Below are positions 13,661 to 31,997 of a stretch of DNA of 64,000 nucleotides, piece by piece; the stretch's first letter is position 1; each line of letters begins with the position of its first letter. The stretch spans positions 1 to 64,000 of the forward strand of contig SKKH01000100.1 in the NCBI GenBank assembly GCA_007121555.1. The letters run 5' to 3'. The notes under the pieces are model-generated. The model worked only from the letters and a program-made list of their open reading frames with translations. It made no database searches and was not told the DNA's origin. This stretch comes from Gemmatimonadota bacterium (GTDB lineage Bacteria; Gemmatimonadota; Gemmatimonadetes; Longimicrobiales; Gaopeijiaceae). The position numbers and the translations under genes are program-made.

Positions 13661-16600
13661 TCACTTCGCTCGGGGCCTCACGACCACGTCACGGGTGATC
13701 CCGTCGTCCACCAGGGGGATCGCTCCGGAGGGCGCCGAGTCGTCCTCCCGGCCGCCGGCCATCGTGACTTCGGCCCCGTCCTCCCGGATCCGCCCCGGGC
13801 GCTCCACCCGGATGCGGTAGAGGGTGTCACCGTAACGGTAATCCACGGTGAACGCATCCCACCCGGAGGGCACCACAGGCTCCAGAAACAGTAGCGTTCC
13901 TCGCCGCCGGAAGCCCAGGATGGACTCCAGCCCCACCCGGTACATCCAGCTTGCGGAGCCGGTGTACCAAGTCCAGCCGCCCCGCCCCGGATGGTCGGGA
14001 GAGGTGTAGACATCGGCTGCGATCACATAGGGCTCCACCTGATATCGAGACACCCCCTCCGGAGTTTCGGTGTGGTGCAGCGGATTGATCATCTGGTAGA
14101 GTTCGAAGGCTCGATCCCCCCTTCCTTGCGCCGCCACCGCCTGCACCGCCCAGAGGGCCGCGTGTGTATACTGGGCCCCGTTCTCTCGAACACCGGGCAG
14201 GTATCCCTTGATGTAGCCGGGATCCAGAGGGCCGTCGTCGAAGGGTGGCGTGAGCAGCCGGATCAGTCCCAGCTCCCGATCCACGAGTTGAGCTTCCAAG
14301 GCTTCCATGGCCCGGGACGCCTTGTCGGGCTCCCCGGCTCCCGAAAGCACACTCCAGCTCTGGGCGATGGAGTCGATCCGGCACTCGTCGTTGGTCGCGG
14401 AGCCCAGGGGGGTTCCGTCATCGAAGTAGGCCCGCCGGTACCAGTCTCCGTCCCATCCATGTTCGTTTGCGGCGTCGGAATATCCCTGCGCCTGCGCCAG
14501 AAGAGTGTCCACCGCTGCGGTGTCGCCCCGGGAACGGGCATGATCGGCGAAGGCTCGCAGGGTGGCAGCGAGGAACCACGCCAACCACACACTCTCCCCC
14601 TGTCCCCCCACACCTACCCGATTCATCCCGTCGTTCCAGTCTCCGATCCCCATGAGGGGAAGGCCATGGACTCCAGTGGTGCACGCCCGCTCGAGGGCAC
14701 GAAGGCAGTGATCGTAGAGGGTGCCGGTCTCGGAACTCCGGGAGGGTTGGCCGTAGACCTCGTGTTCGTCGGGACCCAGGGGTGGCATGTCGAGGAAGGG
14801 GATCTCCTCGTCCAGGACGGAGTCGTCACCGGTGACGCGCAGATAGTGGTCCACAGTGAAGGGAAGCCATACCAGATCGTCCGAGAAACGTGTGCGCACG
14901 CCCCTTCCGGTTTCGGGGTGCCACCAATGCTGAACATCACCCTCCACGAACTGACGTCCGGCGGCCCGGAGAAGGTGTTCGCGCACCAGGGCGGGCTCGG
15001 CGTGGACCAGGGCCATCGCGTCCTGAAGCTGATCGCGGAATCCGTAGGCACCCCCGCTCTGGTAGAGCGCGGACCGGGCCCAGAGTCGGCAGGACAGCGT
15101 CTGATGCAGCAGCCACCGGTTCATCATGACGTCGAAGGAGGGTTCCGGCGTGTGCACCTCCACCACGGCCGAACGCCGGGCCCAGTCGTCCCGGTTTTCC
15201 TCCAGAGCGCCGCGGGCCGCTGGAGCCGTCCGGTAGCGGTCCAGGAGCGCCAGGGCTTCGTCCCTGTCCCGGCCCGATCCGAGCAGGATGACAAGTTCGA
15301 TCTCCTGCCCGGGGGCGAGGTCCACCGATCGTTCGAGTGCGGCACAGGGGTCGGGCGTCGCCCGCAACGCCTCCCACGTCCTTGCGGCTCCCTTCGTCCG
15401 CTCCCCTTCATCGGCCCGGTGTCCCGCACGGGATTCGGGCTGGACCAGCCAGGCCGGTGCTTTGACCGTGCCGTTTCGACCCAGGAAGGCGGTCCTGTCC
15501 AGGGTGTGGTCCATCGGATCACCGCTCGCCGCGAGAAACGCTACCCGATTCCCGAAATCGGGGTCGAAGGGGTTACGAGCCAGAACCACGTCTTTCTCGG
15601 CATCGTACTCCACGTGAAGACGGTTCTGGGTGACCTCTCGGGAAACCCCCAGAGCCCATTCCACGTAGGCCGTCACCGAGAGCCGCCTGCGACGGTCCCC
15701 GCCATTCCGGATCCGGAGGAGGGAGACCTTCACGGGATCCTCGCCGGCCATCCCCATCACCAGGCAAGTCGAGAGGTCCCCCCTCTGATGCCGGAACTCG
15801 GTGGCCGACGGAGAGTGAATCGTGGTGTACGGGTCTTCGGAGCAGACGGGAGCAGAGGAGGGGCCCCAGATCTCGCCGGTCTCGTCGTCCCTGAGGTAGA
15901 TGGCCTCGCCGGGCACGTCGCTCACTGGGTCGTTCCGCCACGGGGTGAGCCGGTGGAAGAAGCTGCTCTCGGCCCAGGTGAAGCCGCCACCGCGCTCGGT
16001 CACCACGAATCCGCCCCGGCGGTTCGCCACCACGTTGGACCAGGGGGCGGGGGGAAGGGTGTCTCCCGAGACCTCGATCAGGTAGTCGCCCTTCGATGTG
16101 AATCCACCGATCCCGTTGTACAAAAGAAGCTCGTCGGAGGAGGTGGGAAGGGGGTCCTCCGGCGGGGCCTTGCCGAGCTGGGGCCAAAGGGACCGCTGAT
16201 CCCCCCGAATCTCCCGGGTTGGTCGACGAGCTGGTGAGGAACGGGCCGGCCCAGCTGCTGGGAGGAGGATCGGTCCCGTGACCCCTTCTCCCTCGGTCGG
16301 GGCGTTGGCCCGCTCGCGTGCTGGACTCTCCTGTTCCGGGCTCCGTACTCGCACCCGTCCATCCCCTCGCTCCCCCTTTCGCTCCTCCGCCTCCTTCATG
16401 AGCGTTGACAGCGCCCGCCCATCGGAGTGGATGCTCACCTGGGCCGTGGCCTCGAGCATGAGCAGTTGCTCCCGGCTAATCTGGTCCTTCCTAAGTGGAA
16501 AGATCGCTCCGGCCCCATCGGTGTCCGCGGCGCTGCTCAGCGTGTGTCGGACCTCGAGGATGCGTTCCTGGAGTTCCTGGAGATACGAAGACGGCTGGAG

Positions 16601-19600
16601 GTTCAGGACCACCAGGTCGAGGTCGAGTCCGCGCCGCCTCAGGTAATGGTGTGCCGCGAAGAGACGGCGCAGGGTGGAGAGCCCCTCCGTGGAGTCGATG
16701 GTAGTCAGGAGAATCGGGTGATCCCCGGAGATCCCCTGAGCCCATAGGAGGGGTTGAGGCCCTGCTCCTCCCGCCCTCTTCTGTGGAGAGGCACGGAGGC
16801 GCCCGCCTCCATGCAGGGGGTAGAGGAGGAGCCCTGCCAGTTCCTGGAACGCCGCGGAGTCCGCGGGAGTGAGCCCCAGCTCACGCAGCTCGGCCTGTTG
16901 GGTGATCCACGCCAGGTCCAGGGCCCTCTGAGGCGCATACTGATCATGATACCGGTCGGCCAGTTCGAAGGTACGTTCCCGGGTGTCGGCGACCAGGGTG
17001 GTGAAGGCCAGCGAGCGGGCTTCGCCCGGCTCGAGGCGGACCTGAGTTCGGAGGGCGAAGACCGGATCGAGCACGGCCCCCACGGTGCCTGAGAGGGGAC
17101 CCGGAGCGTCCATGGCGACGGGATTACGGGTCGTCCTTCCCCGCCCAAGGAACCGGGCCCGATCGGTCTCCCAACTCACCGGCCCGATGGGACCGGATCC
17201 CGCGCTCACGACGTGGATCCCCCAGAGGGGAGCCTCCTCCGCCGAGCGGGGTCGCCGCACGGCCGTGAGAGCGGTGCACCATGGGTGCCATTCGGTGGTG
17301 ACGAACAGGTTGGAAAAGGTGCGGTGCGCCCGGTCGGCTTCGGCACGATTGAGGACGATTTCACCGTAACTTGTGAGTTCGACCTCGGCGGGGCTCCGTC
17401 CGCGGTTGGTGACCGTGACGTTCCGAACCTTCGCCCGGTCCTCGGGGACGACCACGATCTCTGTCCGGGTTTGGATGTCACCGTCCGTGCGGTGGAAGCT
17501 CACCCGGTCCGTGGCCAGAAGCGCCACATATCTGTCGGCGGGCACGCAAATCGGCTGATGTGCCCCCGACCAGACCCGTTCCTGATCGACGTTCCGCACG
17601 TAGCAGAACTGTCCGGTGGAGTCGGAGGTGCCGTCGGTCCGCCACCGGGTGACGGCCGTCGCACCGTGTCGGGTGTATCCTCCCCCCCCGTGGGTGACCA
17701 TGGCCGTGAACGGCCCCCGTCCCAGGAGCGCTACGTGAGGACGTGTGGAGTCGGGGTCGGTGAAGGTTCTCACCATGGGCTGGGCCAGCTCAGGCTCCGG
17801 CAGGGCATCTTCGGGCTCGGCCCGCTGGGTCTCCTGGAATGCCTGGGCCCGCGGGAGCCGCTCCTGGAGAAGAAGTTCGGCGGCCTTCACCCTCGGATCG
17901 GAGTGAAAGCGGCCGCGCCAGACGCCCCTCGCCAGGGCATTGGACAGCGCCACCATGCTCATGCCGATGTGATGCGCCATGTAGGTCTGAACCAGGGCAT
18001 GGGACCCATCCCCATCCGGACGGGTGAAGTCCAGGGCGTCACGGAAGCCATAGGGACCCAGCGCGTCCAGGCCTTCCAGCTCGGTGAGGTTTTCCATGGA
18101 GGTCTCAGGATCCACGGCAAGGGCCAGGAGCGATGCGTAGGGGGCGATGACCAGGTCGCGCCCCATGCCCCGCTTCAGGGCCAGCTCGGGCACGCCGAAG
18201 GCCCGGTACTGGTAGGTGAACTCCCGGTCCCGGAGGTTGTAGGCGCTTTCGCTCATCCCCCAGGGCACCCGGCGCTCCTCGCCGTAGGAGATCTGTCGCT
18301 GCACCGCGGCCTCCTCACCCCGGCGAAGCACGGTGCCGCGGTAGGAGCGCATGACGAGGCTGGGCATCAGATACTCGAAGATGCTTCCACTCCAGGACAC
18401 CAGGGCACCTCCGCCCCCGCCGGTGCGAGTCAGGGTGCGCCCCAGGCGGAACCAATGTTCCACGGGTGCGTGGTCCAGTGCGATGGCCACGAACCCGGCC
18501 AGTCGCGCCTCCGAGGCCAGCAGGTCGTAGTACGAGGGATCGAGGCTGAACTGGTCCTGGTTCCACCCAATGGAGAAGAGCTTCCGGTCGGTGTCGAACA
18601 GGAAGGTGAAGTCGGTCTCCACGATGATGGCCTCGGCCCGGGCTGCCAGCTCCTCGAGGCGTCGGACCCGCGCCGCTGCGTCAGGGCAGGTGCTCGCCGC
18701 CACTCGCAGTGGCACCCCGTCCTGCTGCTCCCCATCCCGCTCCCCTGTTCCCGCATCGTCCGGTACGCCCTCACCAGCCAGTGCAGGGGATGCCCACTTC
18801 GGGACGGCCAGAGCCCGGTCCAGGCTTCGCCGGAGCCAGGGCTCCATCTCGCTCCGGAACTCCTCGGCCACATCGGAGCCACGCAACACATGAAGGGCCT
18901 CCTCAAGAGGAGTGGCCACCCAGAGCCGAGTGGCCGGCGTGACGCCGGCCTCCACGGTCGCGGAAAGGGCGGTGCGGGCCTCCTCCAGACGGGTCTCCAC
19001 TTCGCGTCCCACCCTCCGCTCCTCCTGCGAGCCGGTCTCCAGGTGCAGTCGCACCTGTTCGCTCACCAGCTCCACCTCCGCCATCGTGGCCTCCCATTCC
19101 AGAGGCGAGCGCTCCGGTTGATCCACCAAAGCCAGGAGGCCTTGTCGCAGCGCCATCAGGTGCCCGACCAGGTTCCCGCTGTCTACGGTGGAGACGTAGG
19201 CAGGCTCCAGCACGCGCAGGGACGTCAGATCGTACCAGTTGTAGAAGTGGCCTCGGTACCGGGAAAGTCGGTCCAGCGTGTCAAAGGCTCGCTCCAGGCG
19301 CTCCAGCATGGGATCCAACGCCAGGAAACCCAGGTCTCGGGCACTCATGGTGGAGAGCAGTTGCAGGCCGATGTTCGTAGGAGAGGTTCGGCGCGCCACC
19401 ACGGGGCGAGGATCCTCCTGGAAGTTGTCCGGCGCCAGCCAGTGGGTGTCCTCGCAGGCGAAGCGCTCGAAGAAATTCCAGTGGAGGAGTGCGTACCGCA
19501 TGGCCTGCGGCCGTCGATGCCGCGGAAGCCGCCGATCCGGACCGACGGGCCGGATCCCGGCCTGGTGCGCGACCACCGGAGCGGCGATCCAGAGGATGAG

Positions 19601-22576
19601 GATGGGCACCGCCGACAGCAGCGCCACGACCCTCTCTCCGCTCCCTTCCTCCAGCGCCAGCCCCACGAGCAGCACCATGACCCCCGCAGCCAGGGCGATG
19701 GCGGGAAGCATCTGCCCGGCAATGGACGGCAGGTCGCCGGCGGAGGTGCGCTCCGACCGGGAGGAGGGTGTCCACTCCAGGAGTTTTTTCCGAGAGACCC
19801 AGAGCCGCCAGAGCGTGCGGAGGACGGCATCGGCTGAGATCCATGCCTGGTGGGGCAGAAAGGTCAGGATCAGCGCGAACTGCTTGCACCCCGCCCAGGC
19901 GTCCCTGAGCAGGGCCGCGTAATAGGCCCGCTTGGACCTCTTCTCCGGGGGACGACGCAGGAGGCCCGGGAGTAGGCCGAGGATCCAGGGAGCTGCAAGG
20001 GCCCCAAGGCCGAGGAGCGTCCACCGGGCCGGGGACCCCGGGAGCACGGTCCAGCCTGCCACGAGAAAGACGACCAGGGCGATCTCCACGAGGCTCCGGC
20101 GGAGGTTGTCGACGATCTTCCACCGGGAGATGCGGGTCAGGGGATTCCTTTCCATGCCCTCGGCTCCCCGGACCCGGGAGGCGAGGCGGGGAAGGAGCTG
20201 CCAGTCCCCACGAATCCAGCGGTGTTTCCTTCGGGTGAAGCTCAGGTACCCGCCAGGATAGTCGTCGTAGACGGTCACGTCGGTGAGGAGCCCGGCACGG
20301 GCGTAGTTCCCTTCAATCAGGTCGTGGGAGAGGAGCGTGTTCTCAGGGAAGCGCCCCTCGGTGGCGGCGCGGAAGCTATCCACGTCGTAGATCCCCTTGC
20401 CTGTGAAGCTCCCCTCACCATAGAGGTCCTGGTAGAGGTCGGAGACCGCGGTGGTGTAGGGATCCACCCCTGGATCCGCCGCCTGCACCATCGCGAATCT
20501 CGAGCGAATGGCACTGGGCAGGGTGATTCCCACGCGGGGCTGGAGAACCCCGTACCCTCGCACCACCCTCTCGGCCTCGGGGTCGTAGACCGGTCGGTTC
20601 AGGGGGTGGGACAGGGCCCCTATCAAGCGCGGCGCCGCCTCCCGGGGCAGGACGGTGTCTGCGTCCAGGGTGATGACGTAGCGGACCTGCGTGAGGGGGC
20701 GTGTGTCTCCCACCTTGAGAGAGAAATTGGCCGGCTCGTCCCGGATGAAGCGGTTGAACTCCACCAGCTTACCCCGCTTCCGCTCCCAGCCCATCCACAC
20801 CCCTTCCGAAGGGTTCCAGAGGCGGGGACGGTGGAGGAGGAAGAAGGGTCCGGTGTCGCCATCGCCATAGAGGGTATTGAGGCGCTCGATCCCCTCCCGG
20901 GCGGCGTCCAGGATGGAGGCGTCATCGGGCAGGTGCTCCGAGCCGGCATCCACGAAGTCGGAGAGCATCCCGAAGTGAAGGGCTGGATCCCGGTTCGCCA
21001 GGAACTGGATCTCCAGGTGCTCCAGGGCCTGGTGCACATCGTCCGGGCTTTCAAGGAGCGTCGGGACCACCACTGCGGTCCTGAATTCTGCGGGGATCTC
21101 GCCCCCGCCAAGGAGATCCAGCGAGGGAAGAGAGCGAGGCGGGAGAAAGGTCGTGACGAGTTGGCTCATCGCCCGGACGGCAATGTCGTTGGCCGGGATC
21201 AGGGCCAGGAGGAAGATCAGAATCCCCCACCCACCCGACCCCGCTAGCCAGGGTATGAGCGCCAGGGCGAGGGCGGTCCCACCCAGCAGGCCGCTGCCCA
21301 GCACGATGTCGGGGTGCCGCAGGACCCAGCGATGGATTCGTTCCGGAAGCGAAGGACGGTACCCGAATTCGGCCTCCAGCCGACCACGGCCGTCGTCGAG
21401 GAGCCAGTATCCCACGTGGCTCTGCAGGGGCGGCTCCCCGTCCTCGAGGGCCTCGCGGGCCAGTCCCACGGCCCGAGCCGCTACCTCTGGCTCGGGGGCG
21501 CGACTCCGCCGGGCGATTCGCTCCACTACGTGCCGGTACCGGTCCCGGGTCTTGAAGGTCATCTGGTGGTGGGTTCCCGAGGGATCCAGGCGGAGCTCGG
21601 CCTCCATCCTGCTCTGTCCCTCCACGAAACTCTCCCAGTCCATCTGCCCCACTGTGCGGAGGCTGGTGATGCTGTTGGCCATGATGACCTGGGTGAGCGC
21701 CATCTGCTGCGTGGCCAGCACCGCCGCCTCTTCCGCGCCGAACCCTTCATCGACCACCCAACGCTCCAGCCGTTGGATGGCAGGGTTGGCGCCGCAACGA
21801 AGCCGGAGTTGCCGGAGGAACCGCGACACGAAGGTCGGGTTCAGGGCTGGAGGATCGAGCATGAACTCCTCGAGAGTCCGGGCCAGCCGGTCGTCGTTCC
21901 CTTCCATGACGGTCTCGATCCGATCCACCCACCCGTCAGCCCGGTCCATCTCGTCCAGGCGGGACATCGTGCGAAGTGCCATCCGCCGGACGCTCTCCAG
22001 GAGCGTGAGTCGGAGCATGGCCGGCAGGGCCCAGAGCTCTCCGATGCGGAGGGTGGCGTGCTCCTGGAAAGCTGCCGTGAGGAGTTCCAGGTTCTCCTGG
22101 TCCACCCGTCCCTCGGTGTGCGAGATGAGTACGATGCAGAGTTCGTAGACCCGGGGATATCCCGTCAGATTCCCACTGCGCGCCTCGGGGAGCTCGTCAT
22201 AGAAGCTGGGCGGGAGCCCTTCGAACGCCTCCCGGATGTGCTCTCGAAGGAGATACATGTTGTCCAGGAGCCATTCCGCGGCGGGACCCACGTCGATCTG
22301 CCGATCTGCAGCCTTGGAGACCCGGGCATGGGCCTGCCGCAGGATCTCCTCGTTGTTCCGGAGACGTCGCAGGAGGCGGGCCTCCTGCCAGAATCGTCGT
22401 CGGGAGGGGAGACCCCACTCCTGCTCCTGCCCCAGCGTCCGACCCCGCTCCACCAGGTGCTCGAGGCCCAGGAGCTCTCCACGGATGGGTCCCCCCAGGA
22501 GGTCTCCCGAACGAGAGGGAAGCCCAGGGATGCGGGCCGTGATCGAACCGAGGAGACGGTGGATGAATCGGCGCAT
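13661..22576 (-). CDS. ndvB: cyclic beta-1,2-glucan synthase (GT84 + glucoamylase-like + GH94)
   Basis: About 2970 aa; GT motifs [34 protein letters not shown]...[38 protein letters not shown]...[20 protein letters not shown]; C-terminal cellobiose-phosphorylase-like [65 protein letters not shown]...[11 protein letters not shown]. Confidence 0.92.
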   Translation of the reverse strand: [2971 protein letters not shown]

Positions 22577-22876
22577 GAAAACCGGGTATGGGAGGACCCC
22601 GATGCCGCAGTCTGGAATCGGCACCGGGGCAGCGGGCTGTGTCGGACGGAGTGCGCCGACTTCCGCCGGGAGGCCGACCGGACCGACGGCCAACCAATTG
22701 AAACCCTGAACGGGAGAGAAGGGTCAGGGCGCTCGGCTCTGGATCGTCCCCTGGGGTCTGTCCACCTTCCGCTCCCCATACCCCCCGCAGCTCTCGCTCG
22801 GACTCCTTCTGGAACCGTTCGGCTCATGGCGAGCGTGCGGTCTCGGTCGTCGGATGACCCCGGGTGGAACGAGGGC

Positions 22877-23142: not shown

Positions 23143-23871
23143 ATGTCAATGTCTCCGCCGCTCTCCGCCTCGGATCTCGTGGTTGAGATCCTCCCGCAGC
23201 CCGACGACAGCACCTGCGGGCCGACCTGCCTCCAGGCGCTCTATGGATACTACGGGCTCGATGTCTCCCTCCCGGCGCTGATCGACGAGGTGGCGGTTCT
23301 GGAGTCGGCCGGAACGCTGGCCGTGTACCTGGCGCAGGATGCGCTCCGCCGCGGCTTCGCAGCCACGATCTACACATACAATCTCACGGTCTTCGATCCT
23401 TCGTGGTTCGATCCTCCCGTGGTTGACCTGTCGGCTCGGCTCCGGGCTCAGGCGCTCGAGAAGAGCGATCCCAAGCTGCAGGTGGCCACGAAGGCCTATC
23501 TGGAGTTCCTCCAGCTCGGGGGAAAGATCACCTACGAGGAGTTGACGCCCGAATTGCTTCGAGGCTATCTGCGGAAGGGGCGACCGATCCTGACCGGGCT
23601 CTCGGCCACGTATCTCTATGGCTGTCCGCGAGAAACGGGTACAGAAAAACTGCACTACGACGATCTTCGAGGGGAGCCAACCGGTCATTTCGTGCTGCTG
23701 GCCGGCTATGATCCCGATGAGCGAGAGGTACTCCTGGCCGACCCTCTCCGCGATAACCCGCTGACCGGGTCCCAGCGTTACCGACTTCCGATCCAGCGGG
23801 TGCTCGGGGCGATCCTTCTGGGAGTTCTCACCTACGACGCGAACTTCCTGGTGATCGAGCCCCGAGAATGA
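23143..23871 (+). CDS. C39-like cysteine peptidase family protein
   Basis: LPQPDDSTCGPTCLQALYGYYGLDVSLPALIDEV...GHFVLLAGYDPDEREVLLADPL; Cys and His motifs of papain-like C39 fold. Confidence 0.8.
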   Translation: MSMSPPLSASDLVVEILPQPDDSTCGPTCLQALYGYYGLDVSLPALIDEVAVLESAGTLAVYLAQDALRRGFAATIYTYNLTVFDPSWFDPPVVDLSARLRAQALEKSDPKLQVATKAYLEFLQLGGKITYEELTPELLRGYLRKGRPILTGLSATYLYGCPRETGTEKLHYDDLRGEPTGHFVLLAGYDPDEREVLLADPLRDNPLTGSQRYRLPIQRVLGAILLGVLTYDANFLVIEPRE

Positions 23872-23911
23872 GCGGGCTACTTCCGGCTCCGGGCATGGGG
23901 CGGCGGTCCTG

Positions 23912-25453
23912 ATGATTCCCATCGTCGTCGTGGAGGCTCTCGAGCGTTGGCCCTTCGAGCTCGAAGGCGTCGAGGTGGTATCGGCGCGGGAGTACCTGAC
24001 CGAGCGGACGTACCAGGAGCTGCGGGGCGCGGCGGTCTACAACCTCTGTCGTCGGTACGGCTATCAGACCCTCGGATACTATGTGTCGCTCCTGGCCGAG
24101 GCCCGGGGACACCGGCCTCTCCCTTCGGTGGCCACCCTTCAGGCCCTCCACCTCTCTCCGGTCATGCGGAGCGTGTCCGACGAGCTGGACGAGATGATTC
24201 AGAACGCCCTCCGTCCCCTTCGCTCGGCTCACTTCGACCTTTCGATCTATTTCGGCAGGAATCTCACCCGGCGCTACGATCCCCTGGCCCGGGCCCTGTT
24301 CAACGAATTTCCGGCCCCGATGCTCCGAGCCCGATTCCGGCGCGATCCGGATCCCGAGGCGGAGAGCGGTTTCGGACCCTGGCGGGTTCAGACGCTTCGT
24401 CTCGTCGCCGGCTCCGACGTACCCGACTCCCATGTGCCCTTCGTGCTGGAGCAGGCGGGTCGGTTCTTCCGCCGGCGTGCGCCGGTGGTGGCCCGGGAGG
24501 CGAAGTGGAGCCTGGCGATCCTCTGGGATCCGGAGGACCCGTCGCCTCCCTCGGATGAACGAGCGATCCGGAAGTTCATCCGCGCCGCCTCCGAGCTGGG
24601 GATCCATGCCGAGATCCTGGCTCCCGAGGAGACCGGGCGAATCGTCGAATACGATGCCCTCTTTCTTCGAGAGACGACGGGGGTGAACCACCGCACCTAC
24701 CGGCTCGCGCGCCGCGCGGAGCACGAGGGGCTCGTGGTGGTCGACGACCCCGAGTCCATCGTCCGGTGCTCGAACAAGGTGTTCCAGGCCGAAGCGTTCC
24801 AGCGCCACCGGATTCCGGCACCCCGCACACTGGTCGTCCATCGGGGCAATGTCGATCGGATCGAAGGGGAGGTGGGATTTCCCTGCGTGCTGAAGCGCCC
24901 TGACGGAGCGTTCTCCCAGGGGGTGGTGAAGGCCGAGGACGCGGCCGGGCTCGAACGGGAGCTCCCTGCGCTTTTCACCCAGTCCGAGCTGCTGGTGGCA
25001 CAGGCGTGGACGCCCTCCACCTTCGACTGGCGCATCGGCGTCCTGGGCGGTGAGCCGCTCTACGCATGCCGATACCACATGGCGAAGGGGCACTGGCAGA
25101 TCATCCGCGCGCCCGTGGACTCCACTCCGGAAGGCGAGACGGCGAGTTCGGACACGTCGGGCGAAGCCGTGCCGGCGTCCGACGCCTCAGGCGGTGAACG
25201 CAGCTACGGCAGGGTGGAGACGATACCCATCGAGGAGGCCCCGGAGGCCGTGGTGCGCACAGCCGTGCGGGCCACTCGACTGATGGGGCTGGGGCTCTAC
25301 GGGGTCGACCTGAAGGAGGTGGAGGGTCGTGCGCTGGTCATCGAAGTGAACGACAACCCCAACATTGAATCCGGATACGAGGACAAGGTCCTGGGTGACG
25401 AGCTCTATCTGGCCGTGATGCGCCATTTCCTCCACCGCCTCGTGACGCTGTGA
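23912..25453 (+). CDS. RimK-like ATP-grasp ligase with N-terminal RLAN-type domain
   Basis: VEALERWPFELEGVEVVSAREYLTERTYQELRGAAVYNLCRRYGYQTLGYYVSLLAEARGHRPLPSVATLQ...NKVFQAEAFQRHRIPAPRTLVVHRG...VGFPCVLKRPDGAFSQGVVKAED...LGLYGVDLKEVEGRALVIEVNDNPNIESGYED. Confidence 0.88.
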   Translation: MIPIVVVEALERWPFELEGVEVVSAREYLTERTYQELRGAAVYNLCRRYGYQTLGYYVSLLAEARGHRPLPSVATLQALHLSPVMRSVSDELDEMIQNALRPLRSAHFDLSIYFGRNLTRRYDPLARALFNEFPAPMLRARFRRDPDPEAESGFGPWRVQTLRLVAGSDVPDSHVPFVLEQAGRFFRRRAPVVAREAKWSLAILWDPEDPSPPSDERAIRKFIRAASELGIHAEILAPEETGRIVEYDALFLRETTGVNHRTYRLARRAEHEGLVVVDDPESIVRCSNKVFQAEAFQRHRIPAPRTLVVHRGNVDRIEGEVGFPCVLKRPDGAFSQGVVKAEDAAGLERELPALFTQSELLVAQAWTPSTFDWRIGVLGGEPLYACRYHMAKGHWQIIRAPVDSTPEGETASSDTSGEAVPASDASGGERSYGRVETIPIEEAPEAVVRTAVRATRLMGLGLYGVDLKEVEGRALVIEVNDNPNIESGYEDKVLGDELYLAVMRHFLHRLVTL

Positions 25454-26757
25454 CGGATCCCACGCCGAATACGAAGCCGGAGGTGGGGGACCCCGGTCCC
25501 CTCGGCCTCTTCGAGGGTTTCGGGGTCGAGATCGAATGGATGATCGTCGATTCGGAGTCCCTCGACATCCGGCCCTCGGGCGATCTCCTCCTTGGCGAGG
25601 ATGGAGAGGTGGAGAGGGGTCCCATGGCCTGGTCCAACGAGCTCGTCCTCCATGTGATCGAGGCGAAGACGAACGGCCCCGCGCCGACCCTCTACGGACT
25701 CGCCGAGGTCTTCCACGCAGAGGTCATGGAGGCGGAGCGCCGGCTGGAGCCCCTCGGTTGTCGGCTCCTGTCAGGGGGGGCGCACCCCTGGATGGAGCCG
25801 GCGCGGGACACGCGAATCTGGCCTCACGAGTACACCGAGGTCTATCGAGCCTTCGACCGCATCTTCGGGGTGCAGGGCCATGGATGGTCGAACCTCCAGT
25901 CCACCCATCTCAACCTTCCCTTCTCGGGAGATGAGGAGTTCGCTGCCCTCCACCAGGCCATCCGGCTCATCCTCCCACTCGTACCCGCGCTTTCTGCGGC
26001 TTCACCCGTGTTGGATGGTGTGGTTCAACCGAACCTGGACGAGCGGATGGATCGCTACCGCACCAACGCGGCGCGGGTTCCCTCGGTGTCCGGAGGCGTG
26101 ATTCCGGACCGGAGCCTCTCCCGGCGTGCCTACGAGACGGAGGTCCTGGCCGGCCTCTACCGAGACCTGGCGCCCCACGATCCCGAGGGCACCCTTCGCC
26201 ATGAGTGGGTGAACGCGCGGGGGGCCATCCCACGCTTCGAGCGGGGTGCCATCGAGATCCGGGTCATCGATGCGCAGGAGTCGCCGGTCATGGATCTGGC
26301 CATCCTGAAGTTGGTGGTGGCGTTGATCCGGCGGATTACGGCCGCGGGATTCGCCTCTTCCGACCCAACTGGCCGCTCGCCACTCGATCGGGTGTCCACG
26401 GAGGTGCTGAGGGAGGTGCTCGCGGACACGGTTCGCGACGCCGAGCGGGCTTCGCTGAATGGGGTTCGCAGGCGCGAGGCGATGGCCCCCCTTCTCGACG
26501 TTCTACAGATGGCTGATCTGCATCCTCGGGACGCCGGCGCGTTCTGGGCTGCGGGAGCCGAGGTGACCGGCGAAGACTCCACTGAACTCCGGACACTTCT
26601 CGACCAGGGACCGCTGGCTCGCCGGATTGTGAGGGCGCTGGGAACGAAAGGGGGGCGTGAGCTTCGGCCCGGCGATGCACCGGGGGAGGCCGTCCTCAGG
26701 AGCACGTGGAGAGGCGTGGGCGAAGCGCTGAGGGAGAACCGGCCGTTCGCACCGTGA
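25450..26757 (+). CDS. glutamate-cysteine ligase family protein (GCS2-type)
   Basis: LFEGFGVEIEWMIVDSESLDIRP...SNELVLHVIEAKTNGPAPTL...GGAHPWMEPARDTRIWPHEYTEVYRAFDRIFGVQGHGWSNLQSTHLNLPFSGDEEFAALHQAIRLILP; GTGA overlap with upstream stop. Confidence 0.85.
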   Translation: MTDPTPNTKPEVGDPGPLGLFEGFGVEIEWMIVDSESLDIRPSGDLLLGEDGEVERGPMAWSNELVLHVIEAKTNGPAPTLYGLAEVFHAEVMEAERRLEPLGCRLLSGGAHPWMEPARDTRIWPHEYTEVYRAFDRIFGVQGHGWSNLQSTHLNLPFSGDEEFAALHQAIRLILPLVPALSAASPVLDGVVQPNLDERMDRYRTNAARVPSVSGGVIPDRSLSRRAYETEVLAGLYRDLAPHDPEGTLRHEWVNARGAIPRFERGAIEIRVIDAQESPVMDLAILKLVVALIRRITAAGFASSDPTGRSPLDRVSTEVLREVLADTVRDAERASLNGVRRREAMAPLLDVLQMADLHPRDAGAFWAAGAEVTGEDSTELRTLLDQGPLARRIVRALGTKGGRELRPGDAPGEAVLRSTWRGVGEALRENRPFAP

Positions 26758-26767
26758 TGCGCGCTCC

Positions 26768-27478
26768 ATGACCTCGGCGCTGGTGGTGAGCTGCGAGCAC
26801 GGGGGGAACCACCTCCCTGCAGGATTCCCGAGGCCTGTGGAACTCCTTCGAGCGCTGGCCACCCATCGGGGGTGGGATCCAGGCGCCCTTCCACTCGCAC
26901 GTCTCCTGGCCTCTCGGCTCCGGGCTCCACTTCGATTCTCCTCCATGTCGCGGCTCGTGGTCGACCCGAACCGGTCCGAGGGACATGAAGAGCTCTTCTC
27001 GCAGTGGTCTCAAACGCTCCCCCTTCCCGAGCGTCGCCGGCTGGTGACTCACTACCATCGGAGTCATCGGCTTCGGGTTCGCAGGGCGGTCGAGGCGGCG
27101 TCGAATGAGGGACGGCGGCCGGTGGTGCATCTCGCGGTGCATACCTTCACACCCGTGCTGGACGGTGTCGAGCGCGAGGTGGACGTGGGAATCCTCTTCG
27201 ATCCGACGAGGGAGTTCGAAAGCAGGATCGCCCACGTGTGGCGAGCCGCGATCAGGACGAGGTGCCCTGAACTCAGGGTGTGCTTCAACGAGCCGTATGA
27301 TGGCCGTTCCGACGGCCTCACCTCTGCACTGCGTACGACCTTCGACGCGGAGGGAGGGCTGGAGTATGCCGGAATCGAACTCGAATTGAATCAGGCGCTG
27401 ATCGAGTCGGAGGGACGATTCCCCGACCCACTCGCCGCCGCGCTTGCGGACACCCTGAAACAGGTCCTGGGGGGATGA
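26768..27478 (+). CDS. N-formylglutamate amidohydrolase-like protein
   Basis: SALVVSCEHGGNHLPAGF...HRGWDPGALPLARLLASRLRAPLRFSSMSRLVVDPNRSEGHEELFS...HLAVHTFTPVLDGVEREVDVGILFDPTREFE...GLTSALRTTF...YAGIELELNQALI. Confidence 0.85.
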   Translation: MTSALVVSCEHGGNHLPAGFPRPVELLRALATHRGWDPGALPLARLLASRLRAPLRFSSMSRLVVDPNRSEGHEELFSQWSQTLPLPERRRLVTHYHRSHRLRVRRAVEAASNEGRRPVVHLAVHTFTPVLDGVEREVDVGILFDPTREFESRIAHVWRAAIRTRCPELRVCFNEPYDGRSDGLTSALRTTFDAEGGLEYAGIELELNQALIESEGRFPDPLAAALADTLKQVLGG

Positions 27479-27485
27479 TGTACCG

Positions 27486-30400
27486 CTAACCCCGCGGGAG
27501 CCGGTCCTGAAGCAGGGGCTCGGCGGACTTCACCCTCGGGTCGGAGTGGAAGCGGCTGCGCCACACGCCCCCCGTCAGGGCATTGGCCAGCGCCACCATG
27601 CCCATGCCGATGTGGTGCGCCATGTAGGTCCGCACCAGGCCATGGGACCCATCCCCATCGCGACGGGTGAAGTCCAGGGCGTCGCGGAAGCCGTAGGGGC
27701 CCAGCGCGTTCAGGTCCTCCAGTTCCGCCAGGTTCTCCATGGAGGTGTCGGGATCCACGGCCAGCGCCAATAGCGATGCGTAGGGGGCGATGACCAGATC
27801 CTGGCCCATGCCCCGTTTCAGGGCCAGGTCGGGCACCCCGAAGGCCCGGTACTGGTACGTGAGCTCCCGGTCCCGGAGGTTGTAGGCACTTTCGCTCATT
27901 CCCCACGGCACCCCGCGGTCCTTCCCGTAGGAGATCTGTCGCTGCACCGCGGTCTCCTCCCCCCGACGAAGCACGGTGTCGGGGTAGGAGTGCATGAGGA
28001 GGCTCGGCAGGAGATACTCGAGGATGCCTCCGCTCCAGGACACCAGGGCACCCTTCCCTCCTCCGGTGCGGGTCAGAGTGCGTCCCAGGCGGAACCAGTG
28101 TTCGACGGGAGCGTCGTTCAGCGAAGCGGCTACGAATGAGGCCAGTCTCGCCTCTGAGGCCAGCAGATCGCAGGAGGAGGGATCGAGGCTGAACTCGTCC
28201 TGGTTCCAACCTGTGGAGAAGCGCTTCCGGTCGAGGTCGAAGAGGAAGGTGAAGTCGGTCTCCACTATGATGGCCTCGGCCCTGGCCGCCAGGGCCTCCA
28301 GACGTCGGACCCGCGCCGCTGCCTTCGGGCAGGTGGCTGCCGCCACGCGGAGTGGCACCCCGTCCTTTCGTTTTCTCCTCGCTTCTTCCTCTTCGCCCGC
28401 ATCGTCCCACCCAGGGGAGGTCCCCCTCGTGGCGACTCGAGTCCGATCCAGGCTTCGCCGGAGCCAGGGCTCGACCTCGCTCTGAAGCCCCTCGCCCACA
28501 TCGGACTGATTCAGCAGGCGAAGGGCCTCCTCGAGACAAGGGGCCACTCCGATCCGGGCGGCGGGCGTGAGGCCGTCCTCCACCGCCTTGGAGAGTGTGG
28601 TGAGGGCCTCGTCCAGGAGGGCCTCGACCTCGCGTCCCGCATTCCGCTCTCCCTTCGAGCCGGCCTCCAGGTGCAGTTGGACCCGTCCCTGCGCCAACTC
28701 CACCTCCGCCATGGTGGCCTCCCACTCCAATGGCGAGCGCTCCGGCTCATCGACCAGCGTGAGCAGCCCTTGCCGCAGCGCCATCAGGTGCCCGACCAGG
28801 TTCCCGCTGTCCACGGTGGAGACGTAGGCAGGCTCCAGCACGCGCAGGGACGTCAGATCGTACCAGTTGTAGAAGTGGCCTCGGTACCGGGAAAGTCGGT
28901 CCAGCGTTTCAAAGGCTCGCTCCAGGCGCTCCAGCATGGGATCCAACGCCAGGAGGCCCAGGTCCCGGGCACTCATGGTGGAGAGGAGTTGCAGGCCGAT
29001 GTTCGTGGGAGAGGTGCGGTGCGCCACCACGGGGTGCGGATCCTCCTGGAATTGGGCCGGCGCCAGCCAGTGCGTCTCCTCGCAGGCGAAGCGCTCGAAG
29101 TAGTTCCAGTGGAGGATCGCGTACTGCATTGCCTGCGCTCGCCGACCTCGCGGAAGCCGCCGATCCGGACCCACGGGCTGGACCCCCACCTGGTGTGCCA
29201 CCACCGGGGCCGCGATCCAGAGGATGAGGATGGGGGCCGCGGAGAGCAGTGCCACGATCCGCTCCGAGCTTCCTTCCACCACCGCCAGGCCCACGAGCAG
29301 GATCATGACCCCGGCGGCCAGGGCGATGGCAGGAAGCATCGGCCGGATGATGGATGGCAGGTCGTCGGCGGAGTTGCGCTCCGACCGGGAGAAGGATGTC
29401 CACTCCAGGAGATTTCGCCGGGAGATCCCGAGCCGCCAGAGTGTGCGGAGGACGGCATCGGCGGAAACCCAGGCCTGGTGGGGCAGGAAGGCCACGGTGA
29501 GCACGAGCTGCCTGCATCCCGCCCAGATGTCTCGGGCCAGGGCCGCGTAATGGGCTCGCTTGGCCCCCTTCGGCGGTGGACGAATGAACTCGGGAAGAAG
29601 CCCGAAGATCCAGGGAGCGACCAGCACCCCGAGCCCGAGGAGCGTCCAGAGGGCCGCGGACCCCGGGAGCACGGTCCAGCCTGCCACGAGAAAGACGACC
29701 AGAGCGATCTCCACCAGGCTCCGGCGGAGATTGTCGACCATCTTCCATCGTGAGATGCGAGTCAGGGAAGTCTTTTCCACGCCCTCCGCTCCCGGTGCCC
29801 GGGGGGCCAGGTGCGGAAGGAGCTGCCAGTCCCCGCGAATCCAGCGGTGTTTCCTCCGGGTGAAGCTCAGGTACTCGCCAGGGTAGGCGTCGTAGATCGT
29901 CACTCCGGTAAGGAGTCCGACACGGGCGTGATTCCCTTCGATCAGATCGTGGGAGAGGAGTGTGTTCTCGCGGAAGCGTCTCTCGGTGGCCGCGCGGAAG
30001 GCGTCCACATCGTAGATCCCCTTCCCTGTGAAGCTCCCCTCACCATAGAGGCCCCGGTAGAGGTCGGAGACCGCGGTGGTATAGGGGTCCACACCTGGAT
30101 CCGTCGTCCGCACCATCGCAAACGTCGAGCGGAGGGCACTGGGCAGGGTGATTTCCACGCGGGGCTGGAGCGCGCCATAGCCTCGGACCACTCTCCCCGC
30201 CTCGGGGTCGTAGACGGGTCGGTTGAGGGGATGGGACAGGGCTCCTATGAATTGCGCCGCAGCTTCCCTGGGCAGAGCGGTGTCGGCGTCGAGTGTGATG
30301 ACGTAACGGACCTCCTCCAGGAGCTGGGCGTCCCCCAGCGTCAGAGTGAAATCGGCCGTCTCGCCTCGGAGGAAGCGGTTGAACTCGAGTAGTGCACCCC

Positions 30401-31997
30401 GCCTCCGCTCCCAGCCCATCCACACCGATTCTGAAGTATTCCACCGTCGGGGACGGTGGAGGAGGAAGAAGGGGCCGGTGTCGCCATCGCCATGGAGGGT
30501 GTTGAGGTGCTCGATCCCCTCCCGGGCGGCATCCAGGATAGAGGCGTCCTCGGGCATGTGCTCCGAGGGGGCGTCCACGAAGTCGGAGAGGATCCCGAAG
30601 TGGAGGGCTGGATCCCGGTTCGTCAGGAACTGGATCTCCAGGTGTTCCAGGGCCTGGCGGACACCGTCAGGGCTTTCCAGGAGGGCAGGGACCACCACTG
30701 CGGTCCTGAATTCCGTGGGAATTCCATCCTCGCCTGGAAATTCCAGAGAGGGAAGGGGGCGAGCCGGAAGGAAGTGGGGGGCGAGTTGGCCCATCGTGCG
30801 GACGGCGATGTCGCTGGCTGGGATCAGCGCCAGGAGGAAGATCAGGATGCCCCACTCCCCCGAGCCCGACAACCAGGGAATGAGTGCCAGCGCGAGGGCG
30901 GTTCCCCCCACCAGGCCGCTGCCCAGCGCGATGTCGGGATGCCGCAGGACCCAGCGGTGGACTCGTTCCAGAAACGCAGGTCGATACCCGAACTCGGCCT
31001 CCAGCCGACTCCGGCCGTCGTCGATGAGCCAGAATCCCACGTGGCCCTGTCGCGACGGCTTCCCCTCTTCGAGGGCCTCCCGGGCCAGCTCCACCGCACG
31101 ACCCGCCACCTCCGGTTCAGGGGTGCGGGTCCGCCTGGCGATCCGGTCCACCACCTGCCGGTACCGGTCCCGGGTCTCGAAGGTCATCTCGACATGGGTT
31201 CCCGAGGGATCCAGGCGGAGTTCGGACTCCGTCCGGCTCTGTCCCTCCACGAAGCTCTCCCAGTCGAGTCGGCCCACCTTCCGGAGGCTGATGATGCTGT
31301 TGGCCATGATGACGGTGGTACGCTCCATCTGCTCGGGACCCAGAGCCTCTCCCGCCTCTGCGCCGACCCCTTCGTCCAGTCGGGACACCGTACGAAGGGC
31401 CATCCGCCGGACGCTCTCCAGGAGCGCGAGTCGGAGCATGGCCGGCAGGGCCCATAGCTCTCCAATCCGCAGAGCGGCCTGTTCCTGGAAAGCTGCGATG
31501 AAGAGTTCCAGGGTCTCCGGGTCCACCCGTCCCTCGGTGTGGGAGACGAGCACGACGCAGAGCTCATAGACCCGGGGGTATCCCGTCAGATCTCCACTTC
31601 GCGTCTCTGGGAGCTCGTCAAAGAGGCGGAGTGGAAGACTTTCGGACGCCTCCCTGAGGTGCTCTCGCAGGATCTCCATGTTGTCCAGGAGCCATGCACC
31701 GGCGGGCCCGACATCGGCCTGCCGACCCACAGCCTCCGAGACCCGGGAATGGGCCTTCCAGAGGATGTCAGCGGTGCTCCGAAGACGCCGCAGGAGTCGA
31801 GCCCCCGGTGGGAACATTCGTCGGGCCGGGAGATCCCACTCCTGCTCCTGCCCCAGCGTCCGAGCTCGATCCACCAGGTGTTCGAGGCCCAGGAGCTCTC
31901 CGCGAACCGGTCCCCCAGGGAGGTCCTCCGAGTCGGGAAGAAGGCCTGGGATGCGGACCGTGATCGAACTGAAGAAGCGGTGGAGGAGTCGGCGCAT
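27486..31997 (-). CDS. NdvB paralog retaining GT84 and glucoamylase-like region, lacking the GH94 half; 68-codon internal deletion relative to copy 1
   Basis: MRRLLHRFFSSITVRIPGLLPDSEDLPGGPVRGELLGLEHLVDRARTLGQEQEWDLP... collinear with 13661-22576 copy; ends DPRVKSAEPLLQDRLPRG* where copy 1 continues DPRVKAAELLLQERLPRAQAFQETQRAEPED... Confidence 0.9.
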   Translation of the reverse strand: MRRLLHRFFSSITVRIPGLLPDSEDLPGGPVRGELLGLEHLVDRARTLGQEQEWDLPARRMFPPGARLLRRLRSTADILWKAHSRVSEAVGRQADVGPAGAWLLDNMEILREHLREASESLPLRLFDELPETRSGDLTGYPRVYELCVVLVSHTEGRVDPETLELFIAAFQEQAALRIGELWALPAMLRLALLESVRRMALRTVSRLDEGVGAEAGEALGPEQMERTTVIMANSIISLRKVGRLDWESFVEGQSRTESELRLDPSGTHVEMTFETRDRYRQVVDRIARRTRTPEPEVAGRAVELAREALEEGKPSRQGHVGFWLIDDGRSRLEAEFGYRPAFLERVHRWVLRHPDIALGSGLVGGTALALALIPWLSGSGEWGILIFLLALIPASDIAVRTMGQLAPHFLPARPLPSLEFPGEDGIPTEFRTAVVVPALLESPDGVRQALEHLEIQFLTNRDPALHFGILSDFVDAPSEHMPEDASILDAAREGIEHLNTLHGDGDTGPFFLLHRPRRWNTSESVWMGWERRRGALLEFNRFLRGETADFTLTLGDAQLLEEVRYVITLDADTALPREAAAQFIGALSHPLNRPVYDPEAGRVVRGYGALQPRVEITLPSALRSTFAMVRTTDPGVDPYTTAVSDLYRGLYGEGSFTGKGIYDVDAFRAATERRFRENTLLSHDLIEGNHARVGLLTGVTIYDAYPGEYLSFTRRKHRWIRGDWQLLPHLAPRAPGAEGVEKTSLTRISRWKMVDNLRRSLVEIALVVFLVAGWTVLPGSAALWTLLGLGVLVAPWIFGLLPEFIRPPPKGAKRAHYAALARDIWAGCRQLVLTVAFLPHQAWVSADAVLRTLWRLGISRRNLLEWTSFSRSERNSADDLPSIIRPMLPAIALAAGVMILLVGLAVVEGSSERIVALLSAAPILILWIAAPVVAHQVGVQPVGPDRRLPRGRRAQAMQYAILHWNYFERFACEETHWLAPAQFQEDPHPVVAHRTSPTNIGLQLLSTMSARDLGLLALDPMLERLERAFETLDRLSRYRGHFYNWYDLTSLRVLEPAYVSTVDSGNLVGHLMALRQGLLTLVDEPERSPLEWEATMAEVELAQGRVQLHLEAGSKGERNAGREVEALLDEALTTLSKAVEDGLTPAARIGVAPCLEEALRLLNQSDVGEGLQSEVEPWLRRSLDRTRVATRGTSPGWDDAGEEEEARRKRKDGVPLRVAAATCPKAAARVRRLEALAARAEAIIVETDFTFLFDLDRKRFSTGWNQDEFSLDPSSCDLLASEARLASFVAASLNDAPVEHWFRLGRTLTRTGGGKGALVSWSGGILEYLLPSLLMHSYPDTVLRRGEETAVQRQISYGKDRGVPWGMSESAYNLRDRELTYQYRAFGVPDLALKRGMGQDLVIAPYASLLALAVDPDTSMENLAELEDLNALGPYGFRDALDFTRRDGDGSHGLVRTYMAHHIGMGMVALANALTGGVWRSRFHSDPRVKSAEPLLQDRLPRG

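Follow-up and report, generated by a model that had tools for sequence, protein, structure and literature searches.

A widespread operon pairing RLAN-type ATP-grasp and GCS2-type ligases with two predicted amide-cleaving enzymes in a Gemmatimonadota bacterium

Introduction

The RLAN domain is said to have been defined by Iyer and colleagues in 2009. Neighbourhoods that combine an RLAN-RimK ATP-grasp protein with a GNAT-C39 (DUF3335) protein have been predicted to be amidoligase systems (Iyer et al., 2009, doi 10.1039/b917682a, as cited in PMC10318531 and PMC12239564), and one of the citing papers notes DUF3335-GNAT fusions and credits a possible peptide-ligase role to the same study (PMC10318531). 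The operon considered here shares with these neighbourhoods, as the citing papers describe them, the fusion of RLAN to a RimK-like ATP-grasp domain, the papain-like C39 partner and the peptide-ligase prediction; it differs from that description in the presence of GCS2 and FGase genes and in that the C39-like protein stands alone. Given the credited fusions, we have to conclude that the operon is part of an already predicted class of peptide ligases, insofar as this class is known here through the citing papers.

Several better characterized systems invite comparison. Glutathione synthesis, whether by gshA and gshB or by the bifunctional GshF, likewise relies on a gamma-glutamyl-type ligase and an ATP-grasp ligase, sometimes in one fused protein, but the operon proteins score far below the corresponding equivalog cut-offs, and the operon has an RLAN domain and two hydrolases on top. 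The RimK-RimB system of S6 glutamylation, and RloABC, resemble the operon in that a RimK-type ATP-grasp ligase is accompanied by a gene for a cleaving enzyme; here, however, the cleaving enzymes are C39-like and FGase-like rather than retropepsins, and RLAN and GCS2 come in addition. The phytochelatin synthase Alr0975, which acts on gamma-glutamyl peptides, has a papain fold with a Cys-His-Asp triad, as does the C39-like protein, but the latter belongs to Pfam C39 and not to Phytochelatin. Finally, the operon asnO-ngg-peptidase for the osmolyte NAGGN (PA3459-PA3461) pairs precursor-free synthetic enzymes with a peptidase gene (PMC8070244). The likeness lies in a GNAT and amide-forming enzymes that build a small peptide without a precursor, and in the peptidase encoded alongside them; the present operon differs in lacking an asparagine synthase-like gene and in that its ATP-grasp protein does not match the Ngg model. 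In the open-access literature, we found no product assigned to the four-gene set.

Organization of the operon

The window, that is, the whole stretch of 64,000 nucleotides analysed (contig SKKH01000100.1 of assembly GCA_007121555.1), contains the operon and the flanking genes listed in Table 1. The preliminary description of this DNA proposed four contiguous genes on the same strand, with a GTGA overlap between the second and the third and a short gap before the fourth, and this layout was confirmed in every detail. The intergenic distances are 40 bp (C39-RLAN), -4 bp (RLAN/GCS2) and 10 bp (GCS2-FGase), so that a precursor gene cannot fit inside the operon. The GTG start codon of GCS2, at 25450, lies within the last codons of the RLAN gene, the stop of which is at 25453. 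An alternative upstream start of the C39-like reading frame exists (GTG at 22864); its homologues begin at the ATG at 23143.

Table 1. Genes of the operon and its immediate flanks in the window
Feature	Coordinates	Strand	Length	Domains and remarks
C39-like gene	23143..23871	+	242 aa	Pfam Peptidase_C39_2/Peptidase_C39
RLAN + RimK/LysX-type ATP-grasp amide ligase gene	23912..25453	+	513 aa	Pfam RLAN + RimK
GCS2-type carboxylate-amine (gamma-glutamyl-type) ligase gene	25450..26757	+	435 aa	Pfam GCS2
FGase-superfamily (N-formylglutamate amidohydrolase-like) gene	26768..27478	+	236 aa	Pfam FGase
Full cyclic beta-glucan synthase-like gene	13661-22693	-		Glucoamylase-like + GH94 domains
Truncated second cyclic beta-glucan synthase-like copy	27486-31997	-		84% DNA identity, GH94 part missing

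The encoded proteins

The second protein of the operon has the architecture of the RLAN-RimK-type ATP-grasp proteins: an RLAN domain (aa 25-179; 137 bits against a gathering cut-off of 25, PF14401) is followed by an ATP-grasp part (31.2 bits for RimK against 21, PF08443) that retains the residues for ATP and Mg, with K289, K328, D466, E478 and N480 conserved among 101 homologues. In the predicted structure (pLDDT 90.1), the matches of the ATP-grasp portion are RimK, LysX and Ddl. Identification of this protein as the glutathione synthetase GshB was considered and rejected (18.5 bits for PRK12458 with a cut-off of 408, no match to TIGR01380), and there is no match to the model of the NAGGN synthase Ngg (TIGR03103, cut-off 569).

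The GCS2 protein (99 bits against a gathering cut-off of 21, PF04107) contains the GxExE and E-x-R-x-x-D motifs of its superfamily and can be aligned with YbdK; E27, E29, E269 and D274 are at least 99% conserved, and R271 is conserved as well. A profile search against solved structures matched plant GCL and YbdK, with a best E-value of 1.5e-4, indicating low similarity to the GCS2 proteins of known structure. It is not a canonical glutamate-cysteine ligase or YbdK: the best score is 50.1 bits against a cut-off of 176.4 (YbdK subfamily), and the GCL equivalogs are far below their cut-offs. Elsewhere, the genome encodes another GCS2-like protein, which carries CBS domains (G000:C216, L138:2177-4207).

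The C39-like protein (39.7 bits for Peptidase_C39_2 against a Pfam gathering cut-off of 24) consists of a single, stand-alone domain without a transporter domain, and its presumed triad, C25-H182-D200, is conserved in 97%, 100% and 100% of 78 homologues, respectively. The predicted model (pLDDT 93.4) has a papain fold, and its matches are PeiR, the isopeptidase of archaeal pseudomurein, which ranks first, C39 peptidases and the primitive phytochelatin synthase Alr0975, all with query-normalised TM scores of 0.4-0.5, a likeness at the level of the fold. The name 'C39-like' should not be taken to imply processing of bacteriocin leaders, because there is no transporter, and isopeptidases and gamma-glutamyl transferases are among the relatives with a papain fold. 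A C39 bacteriocin-processing peptidase was accordingly rejected as a candidate: similarity to the C39 family is evident, but the operon has no transporter gene and the protein has one domain.

The fourth protein falls squarely within the FGase superfamily (78.2 bits against a gathering cut-off of 28.9, PF05013), including the conserved His, Asp and Glu residues: E10, H11, H33, D37, H125, E204 and E206 are invariant or almost so across 45 operon copies. A relative of solved structure is 2odf, and the protein is presumed to be a metal-dependent amidohydrolase. It matches none of the NCBIfam models even at an E-value of 0.1, and none of the four operon proteins exceeds the cut-off of any NCBIfam equivalog. 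Across the operon, the presumed catalytic residues, whose roles are assigned by family analogy, are kept in 95-100% of up to 101 sequences. In one locus of Ignavibacteriales (L095:10705-11967), the operon FGase carries an extra C-terminal HD-like domain that scores below the Pfam cut-off.

Conservation, ligase fusions and a variant without GCS2

How widespread is this arrangement? In the phylum of the host, the RLAN protein was found in 23 of 298 genomes, in most of them with C39 and GCS2 adjoining. A scan of 84,980 species genomes yielded at least 592 RLAN relatives, the best 80 of which were combined with 20 loci from the phylum and the window itself into a set of 101 loci that was analysed by profile searches; the members having been chosen by similarity to the RLAN protein of the window, this set is biased. 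The order C39-RLAN-GCS2-FGase on one strand is present in 42 of these 101 loci, C39-RLAN-GCS2 in 28 and RLAN-GCS2 in 10, and none of the 101 deviates in gene order or strand. Where the flanks are long enough (76 loci), C39 is found in 57, GCS2 in 64, FGase in 39 and all three partners in 36; FGase went undetected in 26 of the 64 loci of this kind that contain GCS2 and thus is not essential to the system. By the phylum labels in submitters' titles, the full four-gene set spans at least nine phyla, being found, besides Gemmatimonadota, in Planctomycetota, Acidobacteriota, Thermodesulfobacteriota, Balneolota, Bacteroidota, Omnitrophota, Pseudomonadota (where the operon occurs, among others, in Thiobacillus and Nitrosomonas), Ignavibacteriota and Spirochaetota. 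With one order and strand in 42 of the 101 loci and this phyletic spread, the four-gene arrangement is far beyond chance. The pairwise distances of C39, RLAN and GCS2 are correlated (Mantel r 0.69-0.85, 70 loci), as are those of all four proteins (r 0.57-0.85), and in both cases none of 500 shuffles reached such values, although shared ancestry alone would yield part of these correlations.

The preliminary description further read two ATP-dependent amide-forming and two amide-cleaving enzymes as a sign of synthesis and trimming of a peptide or gamma-glutamyl product, and noted no obvious precursor peptide gene in the cluster. The four enzymes, as predicted from the protein families, form a conserved unit, in which the hydrolases may trim, transfer or recycle, and no precursor gene lies within the operon or, among ORFs from 60 aa upwards, recurs in its surroundings. 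Clustering of all neighbouring ORFs of this size, in search of a precursor or an additional operon gene, revealed no further family in more than nine loci, and none that is widely common, close and on the same strand except the GNAT of the variant described below. Two families reach nine loci: one is this GNAT, and the other lies at variable distance, mostly on the opposite strand.

In six relatives from the order of the host (L047 and L049-L053), the RLAN-ATP-grasp and GCS2 ligases are fused in a single frame of 972-1670 aa, with both domains confirmed by Pfam in L047. The ATP-grasp part comes first and GCS2 second, the reverse of the domain order in GshF. Other loci lack GCS2. L042-L045 encode, besides the RLAN-ATP-grasp protein, a fusion of GNAT and C39 (DUF3335), whose domains Pfam confirmed in L043 and L045. 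In L072, L107, L110 and L116, the gene directly 3' of RLAN encodes a small protein that falls into the same GNAT cluster (confirmed by Pfam for L072). This GNAT scores 31.8 bits with the Ngg model TIGR03103, below the cut-off of 569. Thus, the partner of the RLAN ligase is a gamma-glutamyl-type ligase in some loci and an acyltransferase in others, and a GNAT in place of GCS2 is what one would expect if the role of the second enzyme is to cap an amine or to extend from it.

Genomic surroundings

The operon sits between the full and the truncated copies of the cyclic beta-glucan synthase-like gene, the truncated copy ending 8 bp from the FGase stop, an arrangement reminiscent of a scar left by recombination or insertion. 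The operon is patchily distributed: within the host's family, no more than 20 of 121 genomes have GCS2, and the four other genomes of the same genus all lack it; one of these four (G151) has a single cyclic glucan synthase gene and no match to the operon. In two genomes of another genus (G100 and G117), the operon follows a cyclic glucan synthase gene in the same direction. Compared with the window, the operon DNA of these two genomes is 79-81% identical, and so is rpoB (79-81%), whereas the glucan synthase proteins are only ~40% identical. Together with the patchy presence, these identities suggest that the operon was gained as a unit, by a route that they do not prove. A link to osmoadaptation through the flanking glucan synthase was considered and rejected, the adjacency being limited to the window and the two genomes of one other genus, with differing orientation. 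The module resides mainly on chromosomes: of 72,556 plasmid records, 11 contain RLAN proteins and one contains the GCS2. One of the plasmids, NZ_CP133752.1 of Pseudomonas aeruginosa (L164), encodes a lone RLAN-RimK protein with no C39, GCS2 or GNAT annotated next to it.

Possible functions

So what could such an operon make? The single gene order, the ligase fusions, the correlated distances, the conserved residues, the lack of any other regularly shared gene and the precedent of the NAGGN operon lead us to favour, as on the whole just about probable, a self-contained operon for synthesis, from free building blocks, and recycling of a small peptide-like metabolite of non-ribosomal origin, probably a gamma-glutamyl one. 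In this scenario, with reaction types predicted from the enzyme families, GCS2 would use ATP to activate the gamma-carboxylate of glutamate, or of a close analogue, and couple an amine to it; the RLAN/RimK-type ATP-grasp enzyme would form a second amide bond in the manner of GshB or RimK; and cleavage or transfer of these unusual amide bonds, in processing or turnover, would fall to the FGase-like hydrolase and the C39-like enzyme with its Cys-His-Asp triad.

The main rival to the metabolite is tagging. The ligases could use a protein or a surface polymer as the substrate rather than free amino acids, marking a protein, a ribosomal subunit or an envelope polymer with glutamate or peptides that the hydrolases would take off again, much as RimK and RimB act on S6. 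The ATP-grasp part is indeed nearest to RimK and LysX, enzymes that act on protein C-termini or carrier proteins, a cleaving partner, RimB, is also present in RimK operons (PMC12239564), and in fold the C39-like model comes closest to an isopeptidase of an envelope polymer, archaeal pseudomurein. However, the neighbourhoods contain no conserved gene for a target protein, and the patchy presence within the host's family is unlike that of a modifier of a universal target. Furthermore, all GCS2 enzymes of established activity known to us act on small molecules. Tagging appears somewhat unlikely.

A variant of a thiol or glutathione-like pathway is another conceivable solution: GCS2 would make a gamma-Glu-Cys-type dipeptide, the RLAN-ATP-grasp protein would act as GshB, and the C39-like enzyme would extend or trim the product as phytochelatin synthase does. 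GCS2 followed by an ATP-grasp enzyme is the logic of glutathione synthesis, the rest of the genome encodes no GshB above the cut-off (the best TIGR01380 match, outside the operon, scores 61.4 against 299), and Alr0975 is among the C39-like fold matches, at TM about 0.4-0.5 and at the level of fold only. Yet both ligases score far below the models for glutamate-cysteine ligase and glutathione synthetase, and the operon is also found in Thiobacillus and Nitrosomonas, Pseudomonadota that are expected to have ordinary glutathione synthesis. We consider this pathway quite unlikely.

Maturation of a RiPP, a graspetide or similar, with the precursor encoded elsewhere and the leader removed by the C39-like enzyme, seems highly improbable. 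Graspetide loci do contain an ATP-grasp and a C39 enzyme (PMC8939145), but there the C39 enzyme belongs to an ABC transporter, and none is encoded here. Moreover, the neighbourhoods share no small ORF of at least 60 aa, nor is there space for one within the operon. To our knowledge, neither GCS2 nor FGase is typical of RiPP pathways.

The last alternative, that the FGase acts as HutG in histidine breakdown, the ligases serve ordinary glutathione synthesis and their co-location is incidental, is extremely improbable: it could draw on the presence of a true histidine ammonia-lyase gene, hutH, in the genome (G000:C177, L137:554-4861), on the failure to find FTCD there and on the operon FGase being the sole protein found in a PF05013 search of the genome, but hutH is on another contig with no other hut genes among the neighbours examined, the FGase, itself surrounded by ligases, lacks the NCBIfam match expected of HutG, and its place after GCS2 is kept in at least nine phyla. 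Standard roles in glutathione or histidine metabolism, named in the preliminary description as what would refute it, thus fit poorly with a genome that has no other FGase and no GshB over the cut-off. In a search with PF08886, the controls gave no matches.

To return to the small metabolite, a bolder version, in our view rather unlikely, would make the RLAN-ATP-grasp and GCS2 pair a GshF-like synthase of a new, widespread gamma-glutamyl peptide, the C39-like enzyme its gamma-glutamyl transferase or isopeptidase, similar to phytochelatin synthase, and the FGase the enzyme that recycles it. Whichever version applies, the four-gene set is real, broadly conserved and testable, and yet falls in a class that, as the citing papers present it, had been predicted previously. 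The set is present in cultured genera, Pontibacter, Rufibacter and Thiobacillus among them, and the ligase fusion and the alternative GNAT partner narrow down the chemistry enough for direct testing. If the GshF-like reading is true, the gamma-glutamyl peptide would be a previously unrecognised, widespread bacterial metabolite.
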